A stretch of DNA of 64,000 bases, from NCBI GenBank assembly GCA_030062745.1, contig CP099840.1, positions 15,985,718 to 16,049,717 of the forward strand, given 5' to 3'. The position numbers and the translations under genes were made by a program. The notes under the pieces are model-generated. The model worked only from the letters and a program-made list of their open reading frames with translations, searched no databases and was not told the DNA's origin. Below are positions 2,083 to 63,181 of this stretch, piece after piece (the stretch's first letter is position 1; every line of letters begins with the position of its first letter). The DNA comes from Capitulum mitella (taxonomy: Eukaryota > Arthropoda > Thecostraca > Pollicipedomorpha > Pollicipedidae).

Positions 2083-2222
2083 AGCGCATGTGGGACGTCT
2101 GTGTTACGGACCGCGGGCTGGGCAGCACCAAGAAGCTAAGCGGCCAGTACTGTATCGGCCTCACCGCCGATGGCATTCAACTTATCAACAAGGAGAACCC
2201 GAAGGAGACCTACGATCTCCCG
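2083..2222 (+). CDS. chico: IRS exon 1 of window: first half of PTB domain
   Basis: The exon follows the acceptor TGTGTTCCGCAG and ends at the consensus donor GTAAGT. It takes two bases to complete a codon begun upstream, then reads RMWDVCVTDRGLGSTKKL and continues to KETYDLP. This matches the start of IRS PTB domains (EVWQV...KGLGQTKNL in vertebrates). The needed upstream base shows that at least one further 5' exon exists. It ends in phase 0. Confidence 0.9.
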
Positions 2223-14200: not shown

Positions 14201-17200
14201 GCTGAAACGTGGTACACAAGTGACCCTTCTACGTCATGTGTATTCCGGGTTTGGCATTTCAAGAACAGCAGCGAAATAATTACTATGAAACCAAATTTTG
14301 ACTTTTGACCTTGACCTGACCTTGTAAAGTGACCTCAGATGAAAAAATCGTGTCTGTACGTTGTCCCACTATTTAGCTGTTCATTCATGTTAAGTTTTAA
14401 GTTTTATCTTAAAGACGCTGTGTTTCGCAGTCATTTTCCTTTTATCCTCAACAGGGCCAAAAATGGCATGAGATGCCTCCCAAAAACGTTGTCTGACTCC
14501 GGCCCTGAGCAAAGTAGAATTTCGAAATTTTGCCACAGAACGTAGAAAGAATAGGTAGGAAAAGTCACCAAGTCTCGTGAAGGTGCGTCAAAAATCCTGC
14601 AATTGGCAAGCAAAAAACCCGAAGGGAGGATTTAGCCCCCCTGCCTGGGATAGGGTTAAGGACCTATTTGATTCTAAAAAAGTTTGGTTAGGAAGTTGAA
14701 AACACACGTAAAGCGTTGTTTTTTTTGATTTAATATTTTGACATATTTTGGCCTGTAAATATACAAATTGGGGGGGGGGGTAAGCGCTCGAAGCCCCGTC
14801 CATTACAAAGGACATGTGTTAAAAACAGCGCCGTCGTATGTTCTTGCAAATTATGTTTTTTATTATGCTTTGTGGAACAAAGAAGACAGTATGCAGCTCG
14901 TCCTTCTGCTAGTGCGGCTGGGCTGACAGGGTGATACAGCCGGCAGGCTTCGCCTGGCTACTGCATGGCGCGGGCGGAAGAGCGCGTTATAAAACCACCA
15001 ACTTTTATTTACGAATGAGAACGAGATTTCTTTAGTTTAATTGATTTGTTTTGCATGATGTAAGCTCTGCTTTTACGGCGTTTTTCCTATTGTTACGGTT
15101 CGCGGAATGGTGTTCAGATGCCCCCTGGTACGGGAAAGGTGGATCTGACGACTGGCAGGGGCGGATTAAAAGAAGCACAAAATCTTCCCGACCAGTCTTC
15201 CCAGTCGGGAGCCTTTATAAGTCTCGCACCTCAAAGCGGAAGTCAGCAAACGAAACTGCGAGGTATGGCGAGCAGAACGCATTTTCTGTCAAGTTATCTT
15301 TTTCTTTTCATTTTCTTCTGACTGCATTTTCGGTCAAGTCCGTCGAGGTTTCACGTCATCGAAATCTGGGTGGCGTCATTCCGTTCGTCCGTCGAGTCCG
15401 CGTCGGTGGAGTCCGCGACGGATTGCCGCTTATGTAAACTGAGCTTTAACGCTTTGCCACCCCGTCACGCACTTCCCTGTGACGTGGAATGTGGGCCAAG
15501 GCCATGCGGCACGGCCATCTAGCGTGGATAAAAACATAACTACATCGCCGTAGCGGGCGACAGATGAATATAAATACAATGAGATTACGAAATTTGTGGC
15601 ATGTACATAAAAGAAAACAATGACCTTGGATGTTCAGAACTGCCTTCGCCGGTCGTTCATACACGTTTTACCGGTCCAGGTCGGAATTTCCCGACAAGGA
15701 CGTATTCGGTGAAACCATCGCGAATTTGAAGCGCAATTTGCAACATTAAAAAATGAAAATGGGGAACTTTTCTCGATTTAAAGCAAATAAGAATACTTTG
15801 GAGGACATTTTACATGTTAAAGCTTTCAGTCGGAATTACTGGCCACACCTGGAAAATTTGGCCTTGGAAAAGGGTTTCAGAGTGAAATAAAAAACAAAAT
15901 ATATCTTGGGAAACGTGAATAGCAGAAAGATGCAGCTTTTTGTTCTCACCACAACGATACCCAATTTTTGGGAAATGTCTCCATTGGTTACTGAAACGGT
16001 ACACATTATTCCACCAAGGGTTTGGCCAAAAATAATGAAATCTCAAGCTTTCAGATTGCGCTAGCACAAAAACCACTTGTCTAACCGAGCGAAGAAGTGA
16101 AAAAATGAAATCTCAGCCACAGATTGCCCTACGGACCAAATTTCATCGAAATTTGAGACTGTGGGGTGTTAAATTTGGTAGTTACCTGATCGATTTGTCC
16201 TGTAACGCCCCTGATGTAAGATCTGTCTGCTACGTATCTGTCTGGTTTGCCGTGCACCCAGTTATGTGACGTGCTTCATGGCGTAGCAGTGGTTTGTTGA
16301 GAGAGGACGCCGAACATAGGTTACTTTCATTGGATGGTCTTCGGTTTTCGTTGGGTAGGTTGGGAGGTCGCATTGTTCTCCATGTGGATGAACGACAACA
16401 TTGATTCAATCTTTAGATGGTCCGTCGTGGATTGCCACCGGACACCATGTCCACACTTGTCCTTTGGCGTCGTCGTTTGCGCCCGTCAGTGGCGCGGTGA
16501 CAGAAGGTGGCGTGAGAACAGCGTGGCAGCCCATTTCAGATCAATGCACTTTGCTCTTCGTTGTATTAGCCCCATTTCCCTGTGGTGGATTGCGCTTGAA
16601 ATCCATGTGGGGAGGGGGATTGGACCCCCGACCTTTGTCTATTGGTTCAATTTCGACGAAACGTTGCTTAAAAGGCTTGTGATGCGAACTAACTTCATGT
16701 GTCCCGAAATAACCAAAAACGTCAGTGGCGTCTTCAGAAGAGGAAAAAGAGGTGTATGACCGATTCTTGTTCTCTGGCGTACTGCGCTGCAAGCGCTTCA
16801 TATCATGTTGATGTCAGCTTTTGAGCCTTTACGTAGTCTTAAATGACGGCATGCCTAAAACTAATTTCTTTTGGAGCAATTACAGATGAAAGGTCTCGAA
16901 CATGGCGGGGAATGATCTGCAGAATTTAAGATTATTTTCACTTAGGGTTGCTGGAATGGGTGGGCCAGTTTCAATATTTCTATATCAACCATGTTTGCTG
17001 TCTGTTGGAGTCATCAGTGGCAGGCTCAGGAAATTAAAATATGAGGTTATTGTAACGTAATGAAAGTGCGATTGGTGTACCCGTCAGACCAAACAGTGTT
17101 TATGTTGTTCTTTTTACCCTTTACTTTTTCAAGATCCCCCCATTAATGCATTTCCATAAGGGTCACGATTCGGTGGGAATCAGTAACGTAAACCAAAGAT

Positions 17201-20200: not shown

Positions 20201-23200
20201 GGTAACTGTCCGTAGGGAGGGCACTCAGTTGTGATGCGTATTGGTCAGTGCTCCGCCGTTCCTTACTCGTCCCCTCTCAGTTTTACCATTACGTCCATCC
20301 CTGTTAACAAACTCCATGAGTCCCGACCGTGAGGCTTCGTCTTACCGTTGAAGCCCGTTTCTGGGATTCCGAGCTGGCGGCGATCATGACCAGGACGCAT
20401 GGTCTTAGCGCATGACCTGGGCCCGAATGGTCGGGTTCAGTCATGTCTCGTGCTGACTAGGAACAAGAAACAGAAACAGTAGGCGCGCTACTGTGTCCAC
20501 TCTACGTGTTCTTCCATTTTTCTCGTCGGTCCGCTGTCCCTTCCGTATGCAACTGAAGGTGTGCTTTTTCCACCGTTTATTTTGCGGCTGTGGAGAAGCA
20601 CATGCCTTTCTCGGCGCTCAGTGAATGATTTCGGATGAGAAGCTAAATTCCTGCTTTATCCCGCCCCGCTTTGGTTGTTTGTGAGAGGCCGTCATATTCG
20701 GAAGGGAAGCGTAATTTGTGGTGAAAATCTTGGTCAAACAGGCGAGGGAAAGAGGGACTTGCTCATTTATCTGTGAGATTTTATGCTGCAAGTATTGGCC
20801 ATACCAGCTGTTGGCCGTTTCGCCGGAGGCGTCCTGCCGTGCCCACGGTCCGGATCGGCGTTCCGTCACCGTCAGGGCTGCGCGCCTGCACGCGTCAACG
20901 GTCTAACTCAGAGTATTCTTTTCTTTCCCTTTGTTTCATGGTTTCCTTTCTCGTCGTTCGGCCTTGATTTCGCGCTTGTGTTGGGTGTTAAATATGGAGC
21001 GCCTTCCCTGATTGGTTGGTTCAGATGTCCTTAGTCGGGTGGGGGTGGGGGTGGGGGTGGGGTCTGAAGCACCTCTGATCGGTTGGTTCAGTTGTCGTTA
21101 GTCGGGTGGGGGTGGGGGTGGGGTCTGGAGCACCCCTGATCGGTTGGTTCAGTTGTCCTCAGTCGGATGGGGGTGGGGATGGGGTCTGGAGCACTCCTGA
21201 TTGGTTGGTTCAATTGTCCTCAGTCGGGTGGGGGTGGGGGTGGGGTCTGGAGCGCCTTCCGGGATCAGTTGGTCCAGTTGTCCTCAGTCAGACTGCGGGA
21301 TCTGGAGCGCCTTCCCTGATTGGTTGGTCCGGTTGTTCTTAGTCGGGCTGCAGGGTCTGGAGCGCCTTTTCTGGTCGGTTGTTCCGGTTCTCCTCAATCG
21401 GACTGCGGGTTTGGAGCGCCGCGGAGCCGAGCGCCGCCATCTGGTGGCCGGGCCTAAACTCTAGCTGGCCGCCAGACGAACAAATATTCTCCTGCGCAGA
21501 ACGGACGTCCTGCGGCACGAAGGTTTCCGTTGACCTTGGTGCTGCTGCTCGATGGTTCCTGCGCAGGGCTGTCTCAAGAGCACGTCCCGCCGTCTAGTCA
21601 TTGTTGAATTCTCCCCTCCCCGGCAATTTATTGGGCCAGCGTCACTCGCGTTTACAAACAACAGGCCCTCCGCGTTTGCCCGGCCTCCTTGTGTGCCATG
21701 TGTCGGATTGTTCCTATCCTATTTGATGCGAACGTCTTTTTTATGCTTGTCCAGGCCCAAACGAGCAAGGGGAAAGTTGAATGGAATTCTCGTCGGTCTC
21801 CAGATTTGGGAAAACAATGCTGCTTCATTTTACCGTTGAAATTGATACGTTTATTCCCGCAGAGGAAGGGAGATGTAACTGCGCTACATTTGCGGATGCT
21901 AGTCTGTTGTTGACGGGCGTTGTTCGTGGCGTTTTGGGACAGTAGTTTCCTGTTGAGGGTCTGTAAAGCAGCGTGTGTCGCCTGCCTGACGTGCACCGTA
22001 TGCGATCGGTAAGGCTGTGAGGGCGTGCGGAGACGCCAGCTGACTGGGTGCGTCGTCCGCCGACAGCCAACAACTCGTCCCAAGCGTCGATGAGCACCAT
22101 TTCAGTGTCGACCAGCCCGGGCCGCGACCGGGCCGGCTCCGTCCCCAGTCGGCCGCGCACCGCCAGCGAGAGCAACGGGCACAGATACGGCGCCCAGCTG
22201 GTCGGGCAAGTGCTCATCAGCCCTGTGCACGGGGCCGGAATCACCGGCCGGCCGGGCCGGACAGCCGCCACCGGCAGGCAGTCGTCCGTTAACGGCAGCT
22301 CTCCACCAGGGTTGACTTTCATGTATAGACCTGGTGTTTGAAAATGATACATAAAACGCTTTCAGTATCCATTTTTTTGTAAAGAAAGAAAAAACGCCAA
22401 GAAGTTTCAGAAAATGCATTTGACTAAAAATTATTCTTAATCATATTATTAAATTACTCGTATTAATGGCAATGCAGCCATCTACGGATAGAACGAAATT
22501 CGGGGCTGCATCCGCTCGTGACGTCACGCAACAGCTATAAATAGGACGTGGTCAGATAGGACACAGAAAAATCATGGTAAATCGCCTTGAACCTCTTTAA
22601 GTGTAGAGTTTTCAGACATGATATATATATATATATATTAATGGTAAGCTTCAATGGCCACAGGCTATGCTTGTTTTTTTCGGTTCAGAACACTTATTTG
22701 GGTGGAACATTCACTTTCATCGTGTGAATCTTAGCTGACTGGAGCAGTAGCCATTAAACCATCTTAAACGTGGACCACAGTTTCACTTGTAGGTAGTACC
22801 TTACGAAAACAGTGATGCACTGGAAATATTCGATAATTTGTGGACTGTTTACGAAATGCAGTCATGGAATCGCAATGTTGGATTCTTTTTTTGTGACTGC
22901 AAAATGCTAGTTCAAAGTTATACAGTGATTCTTGAGAGAAAAATTTTAAAGACGCTGTGTGCGGTCTTGTGGGCTGCGTATGGTTGTTTTCGGTCCGGTA
23001 TTGTCTGAGTGCCCCGAACACTGCAGGCACGACAAGCACCACGCGCGGGTCAGGCCGGGCGCGGACGGGCGCCCGCACGCGGTACACCCCTGCAGCTCCA
23101 GCATGACGGCCGGCTCTCCTCCCAACCCGAGCAGCCCGTTCAGGTCAGTCCCTGATCCGCAGCAGTGCGATCAGGTCAGTCACTGATCCGCAGCAGTGTG

Positions 23201-26200
23201 GTCGGGTCAGTCCCTGATCCTCAGCAGTGTGGTCAGGTTAGTCACTTATCCTCAGCAGTGCGATCAGGTCAGTCACTGATCCCCACCTGTGTGGTCGGGT
23301 CAGTCCCTGATCCGCAGCAGTGCGATCAGGTCAGTCACTGATCCGCAGCAGTGTGGTCGGGTCAGTCACTGATCCTCAGCAGTGTGGTCGGGTCAGTCAC
23401 TGATCCTCAGCAGTGTGACCAGGACATTCTCTGATCCTCAGCAGTGTGATCAGGTCAGTCACTACTCCTCGGCAGTTTAATCAGGTTGGTCATCGATCCG
23501 CAGCAGTGTGAAAAGGTCAGTCACTGGTCCTTAATAGTCTGATGAGTTCAGTCACTGATGCTGAGCAGTGGGATCAGGTCAGTTTCTTACCCTCAGCAGT
23601 CTGATCAGGCCAGCCCCTGATCATCAGCAGTCTGAGAAAGTCAGCGGCGAATCCTCAACGGTCTGGTAAGACAAGCCCCTAGTCATCTGAAGTCTGAATA
23701 GGCCACCCGTTGATCCTGAGACAGATCTGTGTGGTAATGTGCCCGTGCTCTTCTTTGCAGCCCAGCGTCGGTGGATAGCAACTCGTCTTATAGCATGGAC
23801 GATCATGTTCCCATGTGCCACCCCATCCCGCCGGACAGCATCATCGTAGAGGAGGCCGGGGACTACCCGCCAGGTACGGCGTTCCGGTGGCTCTCCTGGG
23901 TCAGGTTGTGTATGGATTTAGGGCCAGTTGTTTCGTGAGCCCATTTCTTCGTGTTATGGGGAAGGCTGGGAACGGGGATGTCGCAGTGTGGGTGTGGTCG
24001 GTAGCTCCTTCATATGCTGGGATGCTTAATCTTCGGACTTCCTGGGGTTATTATGGAACGCTTGTTATATCCTGAGTTTTTTTCAACCAGCTGCGACCAG
24101 ACCTATCGGTGAAACGTGGAGTGTTAGTTGTGCGCAATGCCTAGGGCGTGCCTTCAAGTGTGGTTTTGGCCCTGAGGCCGGCGTCCTCTGCCCGCTGCAG
24201 TGGACCGGACCAGGACGTCCGCTGCGGACCTGTTCGACGGTGGTGGGGAGAAGCGAGCCCTGCCGCCGCTGTCATTACCGATTACGGCGCCGGGCGGCGG
24301 CGGCGGCGGCGGCAGCAGCGGCCAGGACGAGTCGCCCTACCTGGCAATGCTGCCGTCGGCGTCCGTGTCCCCGGGCGGCGGCCGGGCGTCGCTGTCGGCC
24401 GGCTGTGATGACGCCTACCTGCCCATGTTCTACTCGCCCGGCGGTGTGGCGGGAGGGGCCGACACGCCGGACGGCGGCCTCACCAGCCCCAGTAAGTCTC
24501 GACGCCGGAACGGTGCCCAGCAACCGACCAGAAGGCGTCACACCCACCGTTTGTGGACTAGGATATCCTGCGAATTTCATATTATGATTTGACTCCCCGT
24601 TGGTATTGGCGTTGATACTCACCCTGTGACCTTAGTGGCGTTAGTCAAGTTTTGTTGTGGCATTTGAGATGTATGGCTATCGACTGTTTTACAGTTGGCA
24701 AGGTCATTCCCATTTCAGGATGGATATTGTGCCAAAAAATCATGCTGATGGGATAAATGGCGGTTTTCGAAACGCCCGGTGTAGTGTATCTGTTGGCTGC
24801 CCGAAGAGATCTGCCGGGTGTCGGATTACGCCATCATTATTGGCGTACAGAACAAAACATCAACTTTTCGGTTGAGAATTATCCGGGGAAAACGGAAATC
24901 GTTGAGTGTGGTTCCAGGACGTTGGGCAGATGTTCAGATTCCCGAATTGGGATAACGTTGTCCGATTTTGATTGAATGTTTTCGAAAAATCGGCCTCTGA
25001 GCTCCAATGTAATGGGCATATGCAAAGTTGCATCAGCATGAAGCCATAATTGCTGAAATTATTCCACTCCCTCGAAGAGAGAATGCGGGGCGCCGGCAGT
25101 AGGCGCGCCTTAGAACCACCGCGACTGTCGGCTAGGTCCCGTTCAGAAACGTACTTACCTCACGGACGAGGTTATCTTTTCTCCTTTAAACTGCCCTTGG
25201 ACTGGGTTGCGTTTTGTTCTCTAAACGGCCCTTCGCAGCACAGTTGTTTCTTATTCACGTCTGTCTGAAAACGGTTATACTCCCTGATAGTGTTTTGAAG
25301 CAGTAACCTGGTCAGTAACGGTGACTTTTTTGGGGGTGGGGGGTCGGAGGGGGACGCAGGCCGAGTCTGAGAACAAATTTGGTCCATATGAGCGCCGGGC
25401 AATGATGGCAGACGGGGACGACGTGACGGCGTGACGACGTGACTGGCTCTGCGTCCGTGGCGGGCGGACCGTTGACGGGACGATGGTGCCGACAGCGGCC
25501 AGTCAGGGCCACCGAGGCTACCACAGCCGGGACCCGAGCAGTACGGAGGAGAGCTACGGGCCTGTGTTCGGAGGCGGCGCCGACCTTGGCTCCGATGATG
25601 GCAGCTACATGCCCATGAAGCTGGGTGTGGGTCATGTGCTGGACGGTAGGCCGCCGCCGGTGACCTGGGTTTAACTCGACGGCACATCAGTTCACATTAC
25701 TGTGGCGATTTCAGCCGGAAGTCGGCAATGCATGCGGTTAGGCCACTCATTGGTTTTGCTTAGCGTGTGGGAGCTGGCGTCCCAGAGGATGAGAGGTGGC
25801 GCTGGTCGGTATAGTAGATGGCAGGTATCTGGGGAAATGGAGGGCGTCGCCGGCCACGGTCGATATGTGCCGTCATGTGTGACGCCTGGCGTGTGAAGTG
25901 ACCCTTGAGATGCCGGACTTTCACTTGTTGGTTTGGTAGTAATAAACTGGGTATATCGGCTGACTGTGACTTATAACTTGTGGTGCCTGACATGCGATGT
26001 CTGCCATGTGACGCGTGGCGCCGGGAGTGTGGCGTATGACGCGACTTGTGACGTGTTCCGGCAGACGTCAGTCACAGTCGCGGCTCCAGCGTTGCCGAGC
26101 CGGATGGCTATATGGCTGCCAAGGTGATGCACGGCCACCTGGCCTTCCCCGCCGACTCGTCGAGCGCCTACGTGGACGTCCAACCGGGCAAGCGGACCAG

Positions 26201-32200: not shown

Positions 32201-35200
32201 TATTGTTACTAACTAAATGACTAACTAAAAGACTAACTAGAGAATGTTCTTAGCATTTTTGAGCAATAGCACATTTGTTTACCATTTTTCCCAAAGACCC
32301 AAACCGCTACTTGCTTCTGCTTCGTTCGAGACCGTTCCTGTCTGGCAAAACGCTTTTGCGATGTAAACTGGGCTTTTGTTTTTATCCAAGACTCGCACCC
32401 GGCTTTTTTATGTTTGATATATATAGCCCTATGTGAAGCATTATGGGTGTTGATCCCGAAATTTATCACTGTAGCCAATATATGGGATACTGGGACACTG
32501 GAGCCATTTGGCGTCATGTCCTTCTGCACACGTCCACTCACTGGCGGCCCGTGCCCGCAGTTCGGCGCCTCCGTGCGGCTCTCCCAGCCTCAGCTCTTCT
32601 TTGGATTCGACGGTGACCTCACTCAAGGAGTACTACCGGCGCCGCAGGAAGGGCTCGGAACTGCGCGAGACCGGCAGTCCGGCGGCCGAGTCCAAAGGAA
32701 GCCAGGACAGCCTGCGGCACCGGCCGCGCAGCAATTCTCAGAGCAGTCAGGGCAGCGACAAGGTCAGCTCTGTTGGCCGACTGGCGAATGGGCACCACCA
32801 TCCTAGTGATTGTGCGTAACTCAGACTGCTCTGTTCAGACTCCTTAGGTTTCGAGGCTCGGTTGCATGACTTCTTTCGTGCCAGACTAAGGCTTATTTTT
32901 TCCTCGCGCTCGGATGTGCGGGGCCCTTTGTTTGGGCTCAGGTGTGCCCCGGGTGCCGTTTGTTTGGGCTCCGGTGTGCCCCGGATACCGTTTGTTTGGG
33001 CTCAGGCGTGCCCCGGGTACCGTTTGTTTGGGCTCCGGTGTGCCCCGGGTACCGTTTGTTTGGCTCAGGTGTGCCCCGGGTACCGTTTGTTTGGGCTCCG
33101 GTGTGCCCCGGGTGCCGTTTGTTTGGGCTCCGGTGTGCCCCGGGTACCGTTTGTTTGGCTCAGGTGTGCCCCGGGTACCGTTTGTTTGGCTCAGGTGTGC
33201 CCCGGGTACCGTTTGTTTGGGCTCAGGTGTGCCCCGGGTACCGTTTGTTTGGGCTCAGGTGTGCCCCGGGTACCGTTTTTTGGGCTCGGTGTGTCCTGGG
33301 TAACGTTTGTTTTTGCTCGATTTGCCCTGGTTGCAGTTTTTTGGGCTCAGGTCTGCCCAGGTACTGTTTGTCTGGCTGTGGTGGACCAGACTTACATGCT
33401 TCCTGTGGTGGGCTAGTTTGTCGATCATTGTTGACGTGGTGTGCATCCAGCTACAATTGCCACGTGGCCATGGCAGTTGCGCTTTCTTGTCCTTTAATAA
33501 CTGGATATAACATAATAACTGCACATAAAATAACTGGACTCGCTTTCGGAACGAGTCCAGTTATTAAGCGGCGTTGAACGAGATATTGTTTTTTTTTTTA
33601 CTGGCTTACACTGATAGTCCGGTACGGTGGTCTTTTGGACTGCGCAGTTATGGATCCTGGCGAACGACATCTCACGATTCGTGCCAAACGCATCCAAGAT
33701 GTCCGTCAAAATGTCTCTGACTGTTTCTCTGCAGACCGTTTTAGTGTTGCCTGCACGTGTCACACGTGTTACAAGTTTTGACGCAGTTTTTCGTAACTTC
33801 CCTTCGTACTTGCGTTATCGCTTGCAGCTGAATTGCCATGCGACTCGGCCTGCCTGAACGCTGCTGACCCGGCCCTCTCCCCAGACGCACAGTGGCTGGC
33901 GGTATCTGTTCAAGCGGCGTGACAAAAAGAACGGCTCCGTGCCTGTGGACGTGCCGGCATGGAGCGGCTCGCCGACCGTTGCACATGGTTCACGCTCTCC
34001 GGGCCCGGCCGACGCCAGCGCACACCCCCCGCGTCACCCGGAGCCGGACACGGCCTATATGGCCACGGCGACCCGCTCCGCCGGCGGCGGGGGCGGCGGC
34101 AACCGGCGGCGGCGCTCCAAGCGACGCGAGCAGCCCCCGGCCGCAAATTACACAGACGACGACTACCTGGTGATGGGACCCATTCATCTGGACGAAGAGA
34201 CGTCGTCCGGGTCGCAGGCGGACTCTCTGAAGCGTCGCCGTCCGGCCGGACGCAAGGCAGTGGCCGCCGACGACGATGACGAACCCCGCTACATGCCCAT
34301 GGAGCCGGCGGTCCGTCCGGTGCCCGTCAGCAGTCCGTTGGCCAGCCCATCAGGCGATTACCTCACCATGGACATGAACGTGCGCTGCACGTCAACCCCG
34401 GCCATCTCCGCCGGTGATTACGTCAATATGAAGATAGGTGCGGTGACGGCCGCCGCTCCGTCGGTGACGCCAGCCGCTGCTGCGCCGGCGTCAAGCTCTG
34501 ATTATCTGGCCATGACGCCACGTGCTCTGGCTGCTCCCGCTACCTCTTCAGCGGCGGCGGCCGCTGCTTCGGCCACCGGCGACTACCTGCAGATGGTGTC
34601 TAGCGGCCGGCCGTCGGTGGTGCCGGCCGTGCAGCGTTCGCAGTCGGCGCGGACCTCGGCTGAACGCGAACCCGAGCGTCAGCCGGCCTTCGGCGGTCGA
34701 GATCCGGATACGTACTTTGCGGTGGAAGTGTCGGCACGGCCCGTGTCGGCGCTGCTCGCCGTCCAGACAGAGCCGGCCAACGCTGAGCGACGCAAATCGG
34801 ACACGGCGCCGCTGGGCGAGCGACGCGGCACCGGCGCCGGCAAGGTGCAGCGCAAAAATTCGAGTGGCGGAGCCGGCGGCGGCCTGCTGCGCAAACTGGA
34901 CGCCATGAACCCGCGCGCCATGTTCCGCTCGCTGAGCCAGCGCGGTAAGAAGGAAGCCAGACAGTCGCCGAGCGAGTGGCGCCAGACGCCGCCGCTGGAC
35001 CGCTCCCGCTCGTGGCTGGGCTCGTCACAGTCGCTGTCGTCGTCTAGCAGCATCCAGGAGGAGTCGGAGAGTGCCGAGGCGGCGGCGTGCGGCCGGCCGG
35101 TCGTCGGTGCCGTCGAGCCGGAGTCGCGGCTCTGCTCGGTCAGTCCATGCGGCTCTGTGGCCAGCGTAACTCCGCGCGCCTCGCTGTCGGGCTCTCAGGC

Positions 35201-43162: not shown

Positions 43163-44416
43163 GTAAGTACTTATATGTATGTTGTAGGCATGAGTGTCTT
43201 GCTCGGCATTCATTTATTTGTGGAGGCCTTTACCCGTTTGTTTTTCCCCGCCAGAAACGGACGAACGACTTCAGTTAGGCATGCCGAACTTTCCTTACGC
43301 CTTCCTCAATATGGCGGACACGGCGCCAAGACGTTCTCTACACCTTGAAAATTGTGGTAGTTATACTCTGAAACGTTCTCTGATGTCAACCCGTTCGGCT
43401 CAGCCGAGCGGCGCTTCCCGAAAGCTGACATCTTTTTTCGTCATGCACGTCATACATCAACATGTTCCCAGGTGGAGCACCTTGCTGGATGGTGCAGCAG
43501 TGACGAGGAGGCCGATGTGAGGGCCGTCATGAAGGCCCTCATCTCTAACGAAATGACCGAGCGGCTGTCCCTGTCCGGACGCGAAGGAAAGCTGTGTCTA
43601 CGTGGCGTCAATCTTTATGAGGTGATGTGCTTTCAATCTTTATGTGCTTGCACACTGGTAAGTGTGCAAGCAGATTTGTTACGGAGAATATCTAGCAGCT
43701 TGCTCTATTGGAAATGGCAAGTTCGGTTGTTGGCCAGGGCATATGCCTCGAGTCGATAAGGTGCTGGGTTCAGGCCTAGCCGTTGGTGTATAGTTATCCT
43801 TGCCGACTAGCGGGATAATGGCTACGAACCCACTATTCTCAGGAAATAACCCAATGTTCCGGCTTGTAACGATACCTTAATTGTTGTACCACATAACGTC
43901 ACACTGGCAGGGGTGTAGTGTCCTATTCAGTTGAGGGGACGACTGAAACTGCCTCCTGAACTTCACCATTAGCCCCAACTTCGAAACGAAAGTGAATCAG
44001 ATTCGGGGGAATATTGGGTTCTATGTGTATTTTGATCGCACTTTGAGCCGTTTTCACCCGGCTCAGTCTCCTCAACTGCTTTTGCGAAACTTTGCACCTG
44101 CACACTGGTATTAAAATAAAGACAATCCATCTGCACCCTTTTCAGCCCAACGACGCAGTAATGATTCAATCAATTTTTTGCAACTTCCACAGAGACGCTG
44201 CGCCGGTGTGGCGGTGGCACCAGGGTGGCCATCGACCAGGTGGTGGCCCGCTGGCTGTCTGGCAGCCGGGACCGCAGCGGAGAACGGCTGCAACGTCTAA
44301 AAAAGGCAGTCGCAGTCGCAACGCCATCTGGCCCGGCAGCAGCAGGGCCCGAGTTGGATCCGGCTGCCGCGGTGCACCAAGTCGTGGTGGCCTTACCCCT
44401 ATTCCCGAAGGGCTAG
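43099..44416 (+). CDS. DUF4806-domain protein, three exons, stop inside a transposon
   Basis: Exons 43099-43162, 43472-43621 and 44195-44416 join in phase. Exon A reads LGDSNEVDSHEDSRPPSAAI. Exon B reads EHLAGWCSSDEEADVRAVMK, ALISNEMTERLSLSGREGK, LCLRGVNLYE. Exon C reads TLRRCGGGTRVAIDQVVARW, LSGSRDRSGERLQRLKKAV. The pattern L-I-S-N-E-M.. S-G-R.. K.. L-R..NLY.. followed by I..VV.RWL..S.DR.G fits the DUF4806 family, which is common in arthropods; its function is unknown. The last 7-8 codons and TAG lie within a TTAA element. The true start is not resolved and may lie further upstream. Confidence 0.65.
43472..43621 (+). CDS. DUF4806 gene exon B: N-terminal half of domain
   Basis: Acceptor CATGTTCCCAG, donor GTGATG, 50 codons. 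It carries the conserved L(I/V)SNE core and the Gly-rich turn SGREGK before the NLY helix. Confidence 0.68.
43622..44194. other. Intron of DUF4806 gene
   Basis: Begins GTGATG and ends ACAGAG. Contains a 12-bp inverted pair CTTGCACACTGGTAAGTGTGCAAG at about 43648 that could form a short hairpin. Otherwise featureless. Confidence 0.45.
44195..44416 (+). CDS. DUF4806 gene exon C: C-terminal half of domain
   Basis: Acceptor TTCCACAGAG keeps phase 0; the AG two bases earlier would break it. It encodes the IDQVVARWLSGSRDRSG block, the usual C-terminal signature of the family (V..WL..A.DR.G), then a Pro/Ala tail. From 44393 the sequence belongs to a TTAA element and gives the last residues LPLFPKG and the stop. 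Confidence 0.65.
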   Translation, partial: TLRRCGGGTRVAIDQVVARWLSGSRDRSGERLQRLKKAVAVATPSGPAAAGPELDPAAAVHQVVVALPLFPKG

Positions 44417-45610
44417 ACGGTATGGTCGATTCCCGGCAGGGGGGCGGATTCGGCCCCCCTGAGATCTCGAGAACTACACATCCGGTTTCATCGCAACAAA
44501 CAGCAATCGATTTGCCATGACGTGAACTACATTTTTATAAAAAGAAAATTTCAAAATTTTGAAATGTGTGGATACAGGGGGGCAAAAATGTCAAAATTAG
44601 GGGTATTTTTGGACTTCTTATAACCCGTTGTTTACGAACCGATTTCAACGAAACTGGCATGAATGGAGAGATTATGGATAGGACTTTTATCATTGGTACA
44701 CACAACTGAAATTTTGAGCAGATTCATGGGCGTTCACAGGGTTTCAAAAACAGGAGGATTAGTTTTTCGACAAATGAATGAAAAAAAAGGCAAAAACACT
44801 TTTTTGGCTTCTGCTAATCATGTTATGCTAAAGAAGTACAAATCGTATTATAATGTTTGTATAATATTAGCATAGGCGATGTCAGGGACATGAGAAAGGG
44901 GGAACTGTTATGGTCACACGTTTTTCAGATCAACTTGTGACCTTTGACCTTAAATGACCTCCAGTGACCTTGGAGTCACTTGGAATGATCTCGTGTGCAT
45001 TCAATATTATCTGTAAACGTTTTCAATCATTTGAATTCATTCTATTTAAAAAAAAAATCCATTTTATGGGTATTGCGATATAGGGTACGCCCACTGACAT
45101 TTTAGGTCATGGCTCCGTGACCCGATCTGATATCAAGCTGAAACTTGATACACAAGTAGAGTGCACCTTTCTACGTCATACTTACTCCGGGTTTGGCATT
45201 TGAAAAAAACAGCGCCGGAATTATTGTAATAAAACCAAATTTTGGCTTTTGACTTTGACCTGACGTTGTAAAGTGATCTCACATGAACAAAATGATATCT
45301 GCACATTGCCCAATTATTTAGCTATGCATCCATATAAAGTTTTAAGTTCTATCTTAAAAAGGCTGTTTTTGGCAGACATTTTCCTTTTACCCTCAACATC
45401 ACGGAAAATGGCCTGAGGTGCCTCCCAAAAACGTTGCCTGGCTCCGCCCCTGAGCAAAACAGAATTTTGAAATTTCGTCACATCACGTAGAAAGGGTAGC
45501 TAGGAAAAGTCACCAAGTTTCGTGAAGCTGTGTTAAAAAGCCTGGAATTGGTAAGCAAAAAATCTGAGGGGGACAGATTCAGCCCCCTACCCTGCCGGGA
45601 ATAGGGTTAA
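44393..45610 (+). mobile_element. TTAA element family 1, copy 4, full length
   Basis: Left end TTACCCCTATTCCCG (first site mutated from TTAA), right end CCGGGAATAGGGTTAA. Interior blocks are collinear with copy 6 at 62 kb: GAGATCTCGAGAACTACACA, GCTTCTGCTAATCATGTTAT, GTGACCTTTGACCTTAAATG, and CCAAAAACGTTGCCTGGCTC. No transposase frame, so non-autonomous. Confidence 0.88.
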
Positions 45611-45723: not shown

Positions 45724-45732
45724 GTGGTTGTA
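45724..45732. repeat. Left 9-bp target-site duplication of foldback element
   Basis: GTGGTTGTA, identical to 50338-50346 on the same strand. Confidence 0.85.
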
Positions 45733-45848
45733 ATGTAACGGAAGACAGCCCACATTCAGCCCAGATTCGGCCCAGCCCAGATTCGGTAGGGAATTCCCTT
45801 TACGGGACGATAACTCCCACAGAACTTGAGAAACCTGGCTTTGCCACA

Positions 45849-46680
45849 CATCAAATGAAAGCACTCGTTAACCCAAACACAACTGTGCAAAGAAAAATCA
45901 CCTACCTTGTCTATGGGGAAAGTTATAGACGATCGAAAAAACCGTGGCTATGGGGCGGCCCCTACGATTTCCTCCAAAATTGGCACATTATACCACTGTC
46001 ACAAGCCCATCAATCTGGCTGAAGAAACCCTATGGGCCATTGAAATCTAAGGGGTCAAAACCCCATAGGAAAATTAAAAACGCGTTTTAGAGCCTAAATA
46101 GCGCCGTGCATAGGCCGAATGACACATCAAATGAAAGCACTCGTTAACCCAAACACAACTGTGCAAAGAAAAATCACCTACCTTCTCTATGGGGAAAGTT
46201 ATAGACGATCGAAAAAATCATGTCAATGGGGCGGCCCCTACGATTTTCTCCAAAATTGACATATGAAATCACCGACACAAGCCCATCAATCTGGCTGAAG
46301 AAACCCTATGGGCCATTAAAATCTAAGGGGTCAAAACCCCATAGGAAAATTAAAAACGCGTTTCGTAACTTAAACAACGCCACGCATAGGCCGAATGATA
46401 CATCAAACGAAAGCACTCGTTAACCCAAACACAACTGTGCAAAGAAAAATCACTTACCTTGTCTATGGGGAAAGTTATAGGCGATCGAAAAAACCATGGC
46501 TATGGGGCGGCCCCTACGATTTCCTCCAAAATTGGCACATTAAACCACTGACACAAGCCCATCAATCTGGCTGAAGAAACCCTAAGGGCCATTGAAATCT
46601 CAAGGGGTCAAAACCCCATAGGAAAATTAAAAACGCGTTTTACAGCTTAAACAACGCTACAGATAGGCCGAATGACACAT
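45849..46680 (+). repeat. Left-arm array: three 276-bp tandem units
   Basis: Unit starts at CATCAAATGAAAGCACTCG (45849, 46125, 46401), then TTAACCCAAACACAACTGTG, TCTATGGGGAAAGTTATAGA, TATGGGGCGGCCCCTACGAT, GGGGTCAAAACCCCATAGG. A fourth unit starts at 46678 and stops after three bases. Confidence 0.93.
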
Positions 46681-47669
46681 CCCGGCCTGGCCGAGGTAGT
46701 GCGTGGCCTGCAGACGGGCCTGGCCAAGCCATAGCTGATCGGGACCGGGAACCAACGACATGGGCTATAAGACCTAAGAAATTGAGACTGGTGTTGGTAT
46801 CACATGCGGAAACAGCGGAGCTGGGATAACGGCCTTGGACAGAGAACCGCGACAGGGGACCAGGGAACAAAACTGCGGCCATTTCGATGCGTCCCCACTG
46901 CAACGTCACGCGCAGTCGGCGTATTTGCTGGTCCGTTGCTCAACCTGTTAAAAGAGCTCTCGGTAAAAAGTATAAATTTCATGAAAAAATAGAAAATTCA
47001 TGAGATAAGTCATGTCCATACCTGGTCGGGACAGGGAACCAGCAACAGGGGATGCAGCGATGCCGCGACAGCGCCGAGGTCTGGGTGGTGTGAGGAGAGT
47101 GAGAATGCCGGCGGACTCCCATCCAGTGGTGAGTGGCAATTGTCATTTGGTTTCTGTATTTTTAAAATGCATTGGACAATGGTTGTCATCTTGAGGACAC
47201 AATGTCTCTCCCCCCATCCGACGGCTAACACAGAATTCAGAAGTCAGTCCTTGGCTGGACTGGAGGTTACTCCAGTGACAGAAACAGAAGCACGCTACCG
47301 TTGCATGTACATGAGGCCAGCTGGCCTCGCACAAGGAACGGAAATGGCTCGCGACTAATCGCCTTCCAGTTTTCGTTTTTCGTCGTTATCGATCATACGA
47401 TCCAGTTGGTCATACGATTTCGACGTTTATTTCCTCGGACATCCCAAAAAATTAAACTATCACTAGCTCACATACATTCATACTTCAACACGCCAAACAT
47501 ACAATTTACATCGAAACGAGAAAAAAAAGTTTCCCATCCCGGGATGCATCCCAAGCCCTCACTGCCCCTGGTGTCCCCTTGTTCCTGTGCTCTCTCCGTG
47601 GGATGGACGGTTGTCATTACGACTGGAATTTTGCGTGACCTTATAACCAAAAAAAAAAACGTGGTGCAA

Positions 47670-47714
47670 GTTGAGTGTTATACGGCACATTTTGAGCGCC
47701 GTATAACACTCAAC
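47670..47714. repeat. Perfect 17-bp inverted repeat
   Basis: GTTGAGTGTTATACGGC at 47670-47686 and GCCGTATAACACTCAAC at 47698-47714, 11-base loop. Could be a fold-back relic or nested element end. Confidence 0.85.
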
Positions 47715-48271
47715 TCACGGATGATGTTTTGGGCTGGCTGGACTTTCCCCTCGAACTTGCACCCATGACTGGCAGTCATTCTCAGTCAAATTTCCCACGA
47801 ACTCCTCCCGAACTCTGTTGCATGGAGACCTTCCACGAACTCTTCACGGACTGAACTATCTCAAATCCTTTTTCACTTTGTTCTCCTCCCGCTTCTGAGA
47901 CTTCACGTGGCTTCGACATGGCACAGTGTGATTGGTCAGTTGGTTTACGTCAGCTTGTGACGTATCCAGCCGGCCCCCGGAAAAAAGGGCTGCGTTTCTG
48001 GGTCAGGCATTCGGGCCCCGGCGCCGTCCTTGCGGCCACCTCGTGGCTTTGTGACCCACTGACGCCGGCGTATCTGAGTTTGGCGTTCGGCCGGTCTAAA
48101 TTTGGAATCTTAACCGGTTGTTTTTCAGTCACACAAACGGCCTGTGGGACCTCTGGTCGATGTTGCCCCCTAGAAACGAGCTACAGCTGCAGCGATGCTA
48201 AGCCAGCGTCGTCTCAGAAGCCGGGATGTAAAAGATTTTGAATTCTCGTATGCCTGCAATAAAGAGCCGAA

Positions 48272-48598
48272 ATGCAACCCGTTACACCTCCATCGTCGAT
48301 GCCGGGGATAGTGGCGCCGCCTGGGCCGGGAAATGCTTATCCCCCACCGCTGAGCGCGTTCAGCCAGACGCCCCCGGGACCGCGTACGGCGCTGGGCGGA
48401 CGTATGGCAAACCGCGCAGCGCAAACTGGACGTCGGCCAGATGTCCTCGCCGATCAAAGTGATTGCGGATGGCCAGGCCAAATGCACCACATGTATCTGG
48501 TGTCCTCGCTGCCGGTATGCCGTTCGGTGCCGTACCTGTACCCGCGCCTTCTGCCGCTGGCTGGCCTGGACCCGGCTGCCACCAAGCTGTCAGTGTGA
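48272..48598 (+). pseudogene. Captured proline-rich exon-like fragment
   Basis: The frame from ATG 48272 reads MQPVTPPSSMPGIVAPPGPG, NAYPPPLSAFSQTPPGPRTA, then later QMHHMYLVSSL and YLYPRLLPLAGLDPAATKL. The stretch between them makes better sense in another frame (LAAGMPFGAV). This looks like a host exon or cDNA fragment of a low-complexity regulatory protein with one or two frameshifts, carried inside the foldback element. The parent gene was not identified. Confidence 0.4.
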
Positions 48599-49360
48599 AT
48601 CGAGGATGCCCTGCAGAGAGGCGGCGTATCGATCGAAATCGCCACCGAAGAGTGATAAAAGTTTTCCCTCCTCAAGCGCTAGATTGATGTTGATGAACAG
48701 CGATACTAGTGTGATTAGTGACTGTTGCCACGGGTGTCGCTGGTGGTGCCACCGGCTGTGCAGTGTGCATGTGCATGTCTTTGATTACGCTTACACAAAT
48801 TAAGTAGCCAGTTGTCTTATGTGCGCCAGTATTGAATATATTCTAGAATACTCACTGGTGCAACCCCTAGATTACATGGTCGATCTTTGTTTCATTTCAG
48901 GTATGTAATTCGGTTCGCAGATACTGATATGATAACCACGTGAATACGAGACAGCACAGTATCGTCTTTCTTACTGCCGTTCCGTGCATTATTTGGCACC
49001 AGGCTCCATGTGTTTTGTTCAAATGTGACATGTCGTCTCGTAACCAGGCTAGGCAATTATACTTTGGAAGTCAAGACAGTAGCATAGTAAGATAGACACT
49101 AGTCAGTCATCTCAAAGCGAGATATTGTGGATGGGCTATGATAAAAACAGCGGGTACGTTAAAGCTGTGGAGCTATAGCTTAAACAGCAAGAAACCCGAC
49201 AAGATTAGTCTCTTGCGACAGCAGAATCTGCATCATATAATTGAGTGCGTGAAAATGGATGTAGGGATCTGGCAGTGACATGTAAACAATAGATACCTTA
49301 CTTACAGTGGTGGAGATCGAGAGCGCAGCCAATAGAGCACGAAACCAGCAAACTATATAC

Positions 49361-50222
49361 GTATTTGGGTTAACGAGTGCTTCTATTTGAAGCGTCATTC
49401 GGCCTATGCGTGGCGTTATTTAGGCTGTAAAACGCGTTTTTCATTTTCCTAGGGAGTTTTGACCCCTTAGATTTCAATAGCCCATAGGGTTTCTTCAGCC
49501 AGATTGATGGGCTTGTGTCGGTGATTTCATATGTCAATTTTGGAGAAAATCGTAGGGGCCGCCCCATTGACTTGACTTTTTCGATCGTCTATAACTTTCC
49601 CCATAGACAAGGTAGGTGATTTTTCTTTGCACAGTTGTGTTTGGGTTAACGAGTGCTTTCGTTTGATGTATCATTCGGCCTATGCGTGGCGTTGTTTAAG
49701 TTATGAAACTTGTTATTCAATTTTCCTATGGGGTTTTGACTCCTTAGATTTCGATGCCCCATGGAGTTTCTTCAGCCAGATTGATGGGCTTGTGTCAGTG
49801 GTTTAATGTGCCAGTTTTGGAGGAAGTCGCAGGGGTCGCCCCATAGCCATGATTTTTTCGATCGCCTATAACTTTTCCCATAGACAAGGTAGGTCTGTGT
49901 TCTTTGCACAGTTGTGTTTGGGTTAACGAGTGCTTTCGTTTGATGTGTCACTCGGCCTATGCATGGCGTTATTTAAGCTGTAAAACACGTTTTTAATTTT
50001 CCTATGGGGTTTTGACCCCTTAGATTTCAATGGCCCATAGGGTTTCTTCAGCCAGATTGATGGGCTTGTGTCAGTGGTTTAATGTGCCAATTTTGGAGGA
50101 CATCGTAGGGGCCGCCCCATAGCCACGGTTTTTTCGATCGTCTATAACTTTTCCCATAGACAAGGTAGGTGATTTTTCTTTGCACAGTTGTGTTTGGGTT
50201 AACGAGTGCTTTCATTTGATGT
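49361..50222 (-). repeat. Right-arm array: three inverted 276-bp tandem units
   Basis: Reverse complement of the left array; unit boundaries recur at about 49380, 49655, 49930 and 50210 (for example GGGTTAACGAGTGCTTTCGT). The innermost unit is the most diverged. Confidence 0.92.
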
Positions 50223-50337
50223 GTGGCAAAGCCAGGTTTCCCAAGTTCTGTGGGAGTTATCGGCCCGTAAAGGGAATTCTCTACCGAATCTGGGCTGGGC
50301 CGAATCTGGGCTGAATGTGGGCTGTCTTCCGTTACAT

Positions 50338-50346
50338 GTGGTTGTA
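50338..50346. repeat. Right 9-bp target-site duplication of foldback element
   Basis: GTGGTTGTA, identical to 45724-45732. Confidence 0.85.
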
Positions 50347-57492: not shown

Positions 57493-59300
57493 TAACCCCG
57501 TTCACGGAGGGCTTGACGGTATACCATTTAGCAAAGTCGTGTTTATGTAGAAAGGCTTAACGTTACACTTGGACGCAAAACCGACGTCATTTCGACGCCG
57601 AATCAAGGTCTCGAGCGGCTAACAAAATCCACGTCGAATCGACATAGGTCGCGATGTCGATTCGATGCCGATTCTACGTTGATGTTTGTTGATGTTCCTA
57701 AGGATCACAACATAATAATGCATATAAGCTCCTCTCATGAGCACGAAGTCTGTTCTAGGCACCATTTAAATGCAGGGAAACGCATTTAACATCACAGGCA
57801 GCGAACAACTTCTATTGAATTATAATGTAGTTATTTATAGTGCAAATTCTAGCTTGTTAGTGATGCATTGGTGATTGAAACTGAGACTGCAGATTCCCCC
57901 GGGTCGCGTATTTTGTGTTCGGAAAGTGCTCACGCGATACTCAAAGCATCGGTGCACGATGCAATGCTGTATGGCTGCTGCATGTTGTATAGCACACAGG
58001 CGTAGGAAATGTAACATCGAAATTACGTCGATTCTACGTGGAAGTGTACGGTCATGATTCTACATGTTTTCGACAGAAATGCGACTTTGAATCAACGTCG
58101 AATCGAAATTAGTTTGATGTTGAAGCGCGATGTTAAATATTGGTGTCTGCACCCCTACTTCTTTTCAGCTTAAACACAACATGCATTTCATGTAGGCCCA
58201 TGTTGAGTCCATCAATGCTGAAATATACTGTCGTATTTTGGATGAAATGTAACATCGAAATTATATTGATTTTTAGTCGAAGTGTAATGTTGCGTTTCTA
58301 GATGTTTTCGACATAAACGCAACTTTGGATCAACGTCCAATCGATATCGATTCGATGTTGAAGCGTGAAGCTAAATATTGGTACCTGTATGCTTATTTTC
58401 AACTTAAAAACGACGTGCATTTCATGCAGGTCAACGATGAATCAGCGTGTAAATGTCGAAACATACTGTCGTATTTTGGTTGAAATGTAACAACGATGTT
58501 ACGTCGGTTACAAGTCAAGTGTGACGTTGCGTTTCTTTGTACTTTCGACATGAACGCGACTTTGAATCAACATAAATCAACGTCGAATCAATGTCGTGTG
58601 CTACCAGGGTATGGCCGATTCCCAGCAGGTGGGGCACATTCGGCCTCCTGAGATCTCGAGAACTACGCATCCGATTTCGCCGCAACAAACGGCAATCGAT
58701 TTGTCATGATGTAAACTGTACTTTTACAAGAAGTCTTCAAAATTTTGAAAGGGGTGGATACACAAGGGAAAGTCAAAATGGGAGATATTTTTGGACCTGC
58801 CATAACTGTATTGTTTATGGACCGAATTTGACGAAATTGGCACGAATCGAGAGATTAAGGATGGGACTTGCATCATTGGTCCAAACATGTTAACCTGAAA
58901 ATTCTGCGTCATACACATTCCGGGTTTGGTATTTGGAAAAATGGCGCCAAAATGAGACCATGAAACCAAATTTTGACTTTTGACCTTGACCTGGCCTTGG
59001 AAAACGACCTTAGATTAACAAAATTATATCCCTATGTTGCACAACTATTTACCTATACATCCATATAAAGTTTCAAGTTCTATCTTAAAAACGCTATTCC
59101 TGGTAGCCATTTTCCTTTACCCTCAACAGGGCCAAAAATGGCTTAAGGAGCCACCCAAAAACGTTGCCTGGCTCTGCTCCTGAGCAAGATAGAATTACCA
59201 AATTTTGCCGCAGTACGTAGAAAAAATAGGTAGGAGCTGGAATTGGCAAACAAAAAACCCGAGGAGGCAGATTCCGCCTCCCTGCCGGGAATAGGGTAAA
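57493..59300 (+). mobile_element. TTAA element family 1, copy 5, split and internally deleted
   Basis: Left end TTAACCCCGTTCACGGAGGG-CTTGACGGTAT at 57492-57522 continues at 58608 with GGTATGGCCGATTCCCAGCA, exactly the order of copies 4 and 6. The 1,085 bases between are an insertion with a 5-bp duplication GGTAT. The right part (to GGGAATAGGGTAAA) lacks the central block present in full copies. Confidence 0.75.
57523..58607. repeat. Inserted element with 238-bp tandem units
   Basis: It contains units starting near 58009, 58249 and 58484 (AAATGTAACATCGAAATTA, then GATGTT/TCGATTC words, GACTTTGAATCAACGTCGAA, TGCATTTCATG). TCGAAT, ACGTCGA and GTTGAT words recur throughout. The right terminus is GTGTGCTACCAG. 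No coding capacity. Confidence 0.72.
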
Positions 59301-61970: not shown

Positions 61971-63181
61971 TTAACCCTATTCCCGGAGGGCTAGACGGTA
62001 TAGTCGACACCCGACAGGGGGAGGCGGATTCGGCCCCCCCTGAGATCTCGAGAACTACACATCCGGTTTCATCGCAACAAACAGCAATCGATTTGCCGTG
62101 ACGTGAACTACATTTCTATAAAAAGAAATTTTCAAAATTTTGAAATGTGTGGATACACGGGGCAAAAATGTCAAAATGGGGGATACTTTTGGACTTCTTA
62201 TAACTCCTTTGTTTATCGACCGATTTCAATGAAACTGGCGTGAATCGAGAGATTATGGATAGGGCTTTTACCATGGGTACACAAATCTGAAATTTTGAGA
62301 AAATTCATGGGCGTTCACAGGGTTTCAAAAATAGGAGGGCTAGTTTTCTAACAACTGAATGAACAAAAGAGGCAAAAACACTTTTTTGGCTTCTGATAGT
62401 CATGTTATGCTACAAGTACAAATCGTATTACAACGTTTGTATAATGTTAGTATAGGCGGTGCCACGGACATGAAAAAGGGAAAGCTGTCATGGTCACACG
62501 TTGTTCAGATCAACTTGTGACCTTTGACCTTAAATGACCTCCAGTGACCTTGGGGTCACCTGGAATGATGTCGTGTATATTCAATATTATCTGTAAACGT
62601 TTTTAATCATTTGAATTTACTCTATTTCAGAAAATTTGTTTTATGACTATTGCGATATAGGGTACGCCCACTGACATTTTAGGTCATAGCTCCGTGACCT
62701 GACCTGATATCAAGCTGAAACTTGGTACACAAGTAGAGGGCACCTTTCTACGTCATATGTATTCCGGGTTTGGCATTTGAAAAAAACGGCGCCGAAATTA
62801 TTGCAAAAAAACAAATTTTGACTTTTGACCTTGACCTGACCTTGTAAAGTGACCCGGACAAACAAAATTACATTTGCACATTGCCCAACCATTTAGCTAT
62901 ACATCCACTTAAAATTTTAAGTTCTATCTTAAAAACTATGCTTTTGGCAGACATTTTCCTTTTACCCTCAACATGGCCAAAAATGGCCTGAGGTGCCTCC
63001 CAAAAACGTTGCCTGGCTCCGCCCCTGAGCAAAATAGAATTTTGAAATTTTGTCACGGCGCGTAGAAAGAATACCTAGAGAAAGTGACCAAGTTTCGTAA
63101 AGCTACGTTAAAAAGCCCGGAATTGGCAAGCAAAAAACCCGAGGGGGGCGGATTCAGCCCCCCTGCCGGGAATAGGGTTAA
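61971..63181 (+). mobile_element. TTAA element family 1, copy 6, full length
   Basis: Ends TTAACCCTATTCCCGG and CCGGGAATAGGGTTAA, TTAA at both sides. Closest to copy 4. Most intact copy in the window and the best consensus for the family; no transposase frame. Confidence 0.92.

Follow-up and report, generated by a model that had tools for sequence, protein, structure and literature searches.

A probable internally deleted foldback-type DNA transposon of Capitulum mitella and its transposase-bearing relatives

The 64,000-nucleotide stretch of Capitulum mitella contig CP099840.1 that was analyzed here (the window, from whose first letter positions are counted unless another reference is named) contains an element of 4,605 bp at 45733-50337, which is enclosed by a perfect 9-bp target-site duplication (TSD), GTGGTTGTA. 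The element is very probably a foldback-type cut-and-paste DNA transposon in a non-autonomous, internally deleted form, and a full-length, transposase-bearing copy of it exists in the same genome.

Anatomy and insertion of the window element

Self-comparison of the window placed the inverted arms at 45733-46681 and 49361-50337, each composed of a unique outer part and three 276-bp tandem units (Table 1), and thereby bore out the boundaries, arms, units and centre reported in the initial annotation, an earlier reading of the same DNA. The tandem units were delimited at 45846-46681 on the left and at 49364-50224 on the right. The arms are 94% complementary across their outermost 622 bases, and the outer 116 bases of the right end are 97.4% identical to those of the left end.

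The genome searched was the window's own (477 Mb in 16 contigs), in which 147 matches to rhodopsin-type receptors and no match to chlorophyll-binding proteins point to an animal host. For the detection of unoccupied sites, both flanks were joined with one copy of the TSD to give a query of 400 bases. The insertion site sits in repeated sequence, and 53 matches were listed, many of them partial and two representing the window's own flanks. Three matches spanning the joint were read, i.e., C13:7106924 (query 1-400, 82% identity), C11:13558727 (query 125-400, 92%) and C2:35448792 (query 130-398, 91%), and all three contain a single GTGGTTGTA and no element. Such unoccupied relatives of the site exist because the site lies in repeated sequence. 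The window element is a genuine insertion.

Table 1. Features of the window element (positions within the 64,000-nucleotide window)
Feature	Positions	Strand	Remark
Left TSD, GTGGTTGTA	45724-45732		present once at each of three empty sites
Left terminal domain, unique outer part, 113 bp	45733-45845	+	starts ATGTAACGGAAGACAGCCCACATTCAGCCC
Left tandem array, three 276-bp units	45846-46681	+	
Centre, 2,679 bp	46682-49360		without transposase
Right tandem array, three 276-bp units, inverted	49361-50224	-	
Right terminal domain, unique outer part, 113 bp	50225-50337	-	
Right TSD, GTGGTTGTA	50338-50346		

Dispersed copies and variable tandem arms

The first 30 bases of the terminus matched the genome 131 times with at most two mismatches (63 forward, 68 reverse), compared with no match for the reversed control pattern. 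The 100 terminus places that were listed form 38 convergent pairs with lengths of 410 to 12,446 bp. Sixteen copies were read at both ends: the window copy, loci L031-L041, L044 and L050, a 12,230-bp copy on contig C1 (L042 and L043) and a pair on contig C16 (L047 and L048). Three unpaired termini (C16:11873383, C14:3629445 and C16:11943113), single-ended loci of other copies and unread copies stand outside this count. Fifteen of the 16 copies are flanked by 9-bp TSDs, 12 of them exact, one with a single mismatch (L044) and two exact beyond an extra copy of the terminus, which sustains the foldback-type element with a 9-bp duplication that the initial annotation had proposed and had wished to see repeated elsewhere in the genome. 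The refutation formulated there, by copies with other boundaries or without 9-bp repeats, did not materialize. The common termini are partly a matter of construction, as the copies were found via the terminus, whereas the TSDs are not. Apart from L047 and L048, the first 40 bases are identical in 28 of the 30 ends of the remaining 15 copies.

In the two copies with an extra terminus, L039 and L050, the perfect 9-bp TSD is located just outside an additional tandem copy, 15 or 18 bp long, of the element's terminus at its right end (C10:10246554 and C15:9063250, respectively). Since these extra copies end exactly at the TSD, the two cases suggest an origin in the course of transposition, at a still unattached end, rather than at a later time. 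Terminus pairs that are only 410-690 bp apart (C7:4036068-4036477, C11:3171588-3172049 and C13:8885278-8885967) are probably miniature derivatives in which the array is small or missing.

An assembly artefact or a local inverted duplication, named at the outset as a possible refutation, would explain the inverted structure without any transposon. Nothing at the window locus speaks for it; elsewhere, the C16 termini at 11873383 and 11925274, which are 52 kb apart and have reverse-complementary flanks, resemble an inverted duplication and point to one around a single insertion. Dispersed copies with different TSDs, together with the empty sites, contradict this explanation and are not accounted for by an artefact, and we regard it as extremely improbable.

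The number of 276-bp units ranges from 0.5 to 10.9 per arm in the 15 copies compared (again excluding L047 and L048), varies between elements and is often unequal between the two arms of one element. Long inverted arms of tandem units that vary between copies are the structural mark of a foldback element. At the lower extreme, L050 has half a unit per arm, yet it possesses a 9-bp TSD (beyond the extra 18-bp copy of its terminus). When the units were compared, 72 of the 94 complete ones had their nearest counterpart in another element, which gives no strong signal of homogenization between the arms of one element.

Full-length copy, transposase-Ulp1 protein and related loci

The full-length copy that had been recommended as a search target was found at C1:8744251-8756480. 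It comprises 12,230 bp, has the same ends as the window element and is flanked by the TSD CGCCATTTC. The window element is colinear with the reverse complement of this copy at about 93% identity: element positions 950-1547 (counted from 45733) correspond to 1345-1944, and 1549-3451 correspond to 8076-9963. A single deletion of 6.1 kb at about 47280 (element 1547/1549) accordingly separates the two, and the removed interval, 1945-8075 of the 12,230-bp copy, harbors a frame of 1,110 amino acids (aa; 3611-6940) and an overlapping upstream frame of 351 aa (3061-4113). The window copy thus reads, on this alignment, as a deletion derivative of a transposase-bearing element. The earlier observation that the centre lacks a transposase holds, as the transposase frames lie in the stretch lost from the window copy; a Pfam scan of two centre frames of the window element gave no match.

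A second difference is a 1.2-kb stretch at 9963-11167 of the 12,230-bp copy, which is absent from the window copy at about 49178-49183 (element 3446-3451). A second deletion in the window copy was considered and rejected: the stretch is a dispersed repeat that occurs several times elsewhere in the window, and it is therefore better read as an insertion in the 12.2-kb copy. The places of this repeat in the window are 44398-45609 and 61971-63180 (the two longest), 7211-8565, 13846-14658, 58608-59297 and 366-678, with identities of 72-89% to the repeat inside the 12.2-kb element.

The protein encoded by the 1,110-aa frame begins with a repetitive N-terminal part, which is followed by a Cys-rich segment, the DDE-like core, a linker specified by a 30-bp minisatellite and, at the C-terminus, an Ulp1/SENP domain. 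Candidate core residues are D395 in HIDATGS, D468 in VVTDLS, C510-x2-H513 and E665 in SNACVESW (our own numbering); judging by eye and from motif descriptions, we take D395, D468 and E665 to be the DDE residues and C510 and H513 to be the C-x2-H motif. Among five aligned proteins, D395 and E665 do not vary, and D468 is replaced by N in one (L054). For the Ulp1 part, the Pfam family Peptidase_C48 matched the 1,110-aa frame with an E value of 6e-4 and 20.1 bits, just under the cut-off of 20.7, and four related loci with E values of 1.5e-7, 3.8e-10, 1.2e-10 and 3.9e-4, all above the cut-off. A profile of the five proteins matched SENP1 at 7e-16 and no transposase structure, and the catalytic H, D, Q and C residues of Ulp1/SENP are, by eye, retained in all five.

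For the 548-aa core, the genome search gave at least 89 matches, with 79 of 111 candidates having been scored. At least five of them are 99-100% identical over 540-548 residues without stops, and the others range from 29% to 98% and are in many cases partial. The four related loci, which share the order of transposase followed by Ulp1, represent three families, and inverted arms were demonstrated in one of the three. This family is a relative on contig C3 with 45% identity in the core, an element of 9,921 bp that is flanked by a perfect 9-bp TSD, GGCCGGGTC. Its two inverted arms are built of 329-bp tandem units, of which Tandem Repeats Finder counted 5.9 in one arm and 3.1 in the other. The ends of this element, ATGTCTGTCAAGACAGCCCACGCTCAGCCCA, agree with those of the window family, ATGTAACGGAAGACAGCCCACATTCAGCCCA, in 20 of 22 bases at positions 10-31, and the part of the terminus retained in both families reads ATGT followed by AAGACAGCCCAC-NN-TCAGCCCA. 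This terminal match scored 34 against a shuffle maximum of 30 and was kept because its distance from the end is also the same in the two families.

The other two families are represented by C5:3914608 (30% identity in the core) and C1:23421261 (37%), both with the transposase preceding Ulp1, and L054 is another copy of the latter family. At L055, a single in-frame stop precedes the Ulp1 part, which was scanned separately. A comparison of L053 with L054, two copies of one related family, gave a ratio of non-synonymous to synonymous substitution rates of 0.99 overall, 0.48 for the DDE part and 1.66 for the linker; their Ulp1 parts differ by no synonymous and six non-synonymous changes, and purifying selection is not evident there, although the counts are small. 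In each of three families, a different minisatellite codes for the linker that connects transposase and Ulp1 (L053 795-1487, L052 3970-4379 and L051 3110-3573, with units of 21, 12 and 30 bp, respectively). All three unit lengths are multiples of three, and the length of the linker differs between L053 and L054. A search for relatives in viral contigs yielded 19 pattern matches, none of which was confirmed.

Several observations weigh against the window element being a deleted copy of a foldback-type transposon of this kind. No transposition was observed. The 351-aa and 1,110-aa frames overlap in different frames, so that the start and splicing of the gene are provisional; in L047, a near-identical copy, core and Ulp1 part are likewise found in different frames. 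One of the 16 copies, L047 with L048, has no matching TSD; it is a rearranged place, because only one of nine TSD bases agrees and the right flank runs on as 276-bp-unit sequence. No inverted arms were found at C5:3914608 and C1:23421261 within the 3-4 kb read per side, and candidate motifs common to the 276- and 329-bp units were rejected as not exceeding shuffled sequences (best local scores of 26 and 25, whereas 100 single-letter shuffles reached up to 29). The match of the 1,110-aa frame to the Mutator-like element (MULE) domain PF10551 had an E value of 0.061 and 14.2 bits, versus a cut-off of 27.6, and a profile comparison (hhalign) with two other MULE-like proteins (C8:6218716 and C4:30192888, partial stretches that just reach the cut-off) detected no relation.

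A link of the transposase to MULEs is suggestive only. Pfam found no MULE domain in the four related loci, and a genome search with PF10551 at E values up to 1 gave 22 places. The 10 places above the cut-off belong to other proteins, and four places, all below it, are copies of this transposase. Of the "foldback/Mutator-like biology" originally suggested, the foldback part is supported, whereas the Mutator part is only weakly supported.

With respect to the rearranged place on C16, a region with termini at 11873383, 11925274 and 11937719 (L045-L048), the 12.4-kb pair, which is without a matching target duplication, abuts unit sequence of another copy.

Proposed mechanism, classification and other observations

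A DDE transposase supplied by the full-length copy would bind the terminal domain (the terminal ~30 bases), excise the element and insert it at a target site whose two strands are cut 9 bases apart, and deleted copies such as the window element could be mobilized in trans. The 276-bp arrays vary in unit number from element to element and from one arm to the other, which suggests that they lengthen and shorten through unequal exchange, through slippage or through hairpin template switching from arm to arm. During transposition, the Ulp1/SENP domain would probably free repair or silencing proteins of the host, or else the transposase, of SUMO.

The arrays might also be incidental satellite growth inside the transposon that plays no role in mobility, for which the chances fall just short of even. 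Such growth would agree with the wide range of unit numbers, with the TSD of the half-unit copy L050 and with the TIR-220 arrays of Tetris, which grew into satellite DNA (PMC4079207). It is opposed by the presence of arrays in both arms of two families with 45% identical transposase cores and by the arm repeats of Galileo, which contain extra transposase-binding sites (PMC4079207).

The anatomy of the window family as such is already known, since Rehavkus-1_TC and Tm1 resemble it in build. Rehavkus elements have been described from arthropods and annelids with a 9-bp TSD, a PHD finger and a minisatellite (PMC6446971), and Rehavkus-1_TC is a 9.5-kb element whose inverted termini contain a 164-bp unit in short tandem arrays, mostly of five and eight (PMC10218199); Rehavkus also appears as a list entry in PMC4298943, and arthropod MULEs are treated in PMC13359780. 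The likeness extends to inverted termini with tandem units, an element size of about 10 kb, the 9-bp TSD and the minisatellite, and the family may accordingly be an ordinary Rehavkus-group MULE that differs from published ones only in host and sequence, a view that we consider arguable and on balance somewhat doubtful. Rehavkus transposases are said to bear a PHD finger (PMC6446971), whereas Pfam detected none at E values up to 1 in the seven frames scanned here, a result that does not cover exons outside those frames. The C-terminal Ulp1/SENP domain and the units of 276 and 329 bp are further differences. A 9-bp TSD lies within the MULE range of about 8-11 bp (PMC6446971). Since the MULE cut-off was missed and no PHD finger was found, the element is filed as a foldback-type DNA transposon and neither as a MULE nor as Rehavkus.

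Other known systems share individual traits. The Tm1 Mutator/Foldback family of root-knot nematodes resembles the window family in anatomy but differs in its units of 13-15 bp and its 496-aa transposase with FLYWCH and a clear MULE domain (PMC3169594); the word Ulp1 is absent from the main text of that paper. Mutator elements of hydra, lancelet and plants carry an Ulp1 C48 protease domain on a transposon protein, as is the case here, whereas foldback tandem arms are unmentioned in the accessible part of that source (PMC2836005) and the MULE domain in our family is below the cut-off. Tetris has a unique outer domain and a variable number of ~220-bp tandem arm units, but no transposase-coding copy of it was found (PMC4079207), in contrast to the present family. 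Galileo shares the long, internally repetitive terminal inverted repeats and differs in being classified with the P element (PMC3573991). In the seven frames, no FLYWCH match and only a subthreshold MULE match were present, which does not correspond to Phantom, and Ulp1 was found without any integrase family, in contrast to the Gypsy-type integrase core followed by OTU or Ulp1 of Ginger1.

Foldback tandem arms together with a fusion of transposase and Ulp1 were not met in the literature examined, which included little subscription literature and not Repbase, and this is no proof of novelty. It is conceivable, albeit unlikely, that the elements form a separate animal transposon lineage outside Rehavkus and the named MULE clades, with a DDE transposase regularly fused via a minisatellite-coded linker to a SUMO protease, with tandem foldback arms as ends and with arms and protease cooperating. 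In such a lineage, the arms would serve to concentrate transposase or to form hairpins, and the repair or silencing proteins assembling there would lose their SUMO to the protease. Foldback elements are often known only from copies that lack a transposase, e.g., Tetris (PMC4079207). Here, one chromosome-scale genome offers, besides empty sites, both deleted and open full-length copies as well as a second family of the same build, and the origin and role of the tandem arms are therefore testable. The family also bears on the question of why several transposon groups took up SUMO or ubiquitin proteases; a possible part of Ulp1 and OTU domains in transposition has been discussed for several transposons (PMC2836005).

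No RNA family scored above its gathering threshold in the window. Other tandem arrays in the window are located at 23140-23635 (31 bp x 16), 32927-33375 (32 bp x 14) and 58006-58571 (238 bp x 2.4), and none of the three has an inverted partner among the 25 longest of the 53 inverted pairs. With regard to telomere type, a run of TTAGGG gave six overlapping and uninformative genome matches at three places, all of which are inside contigs.

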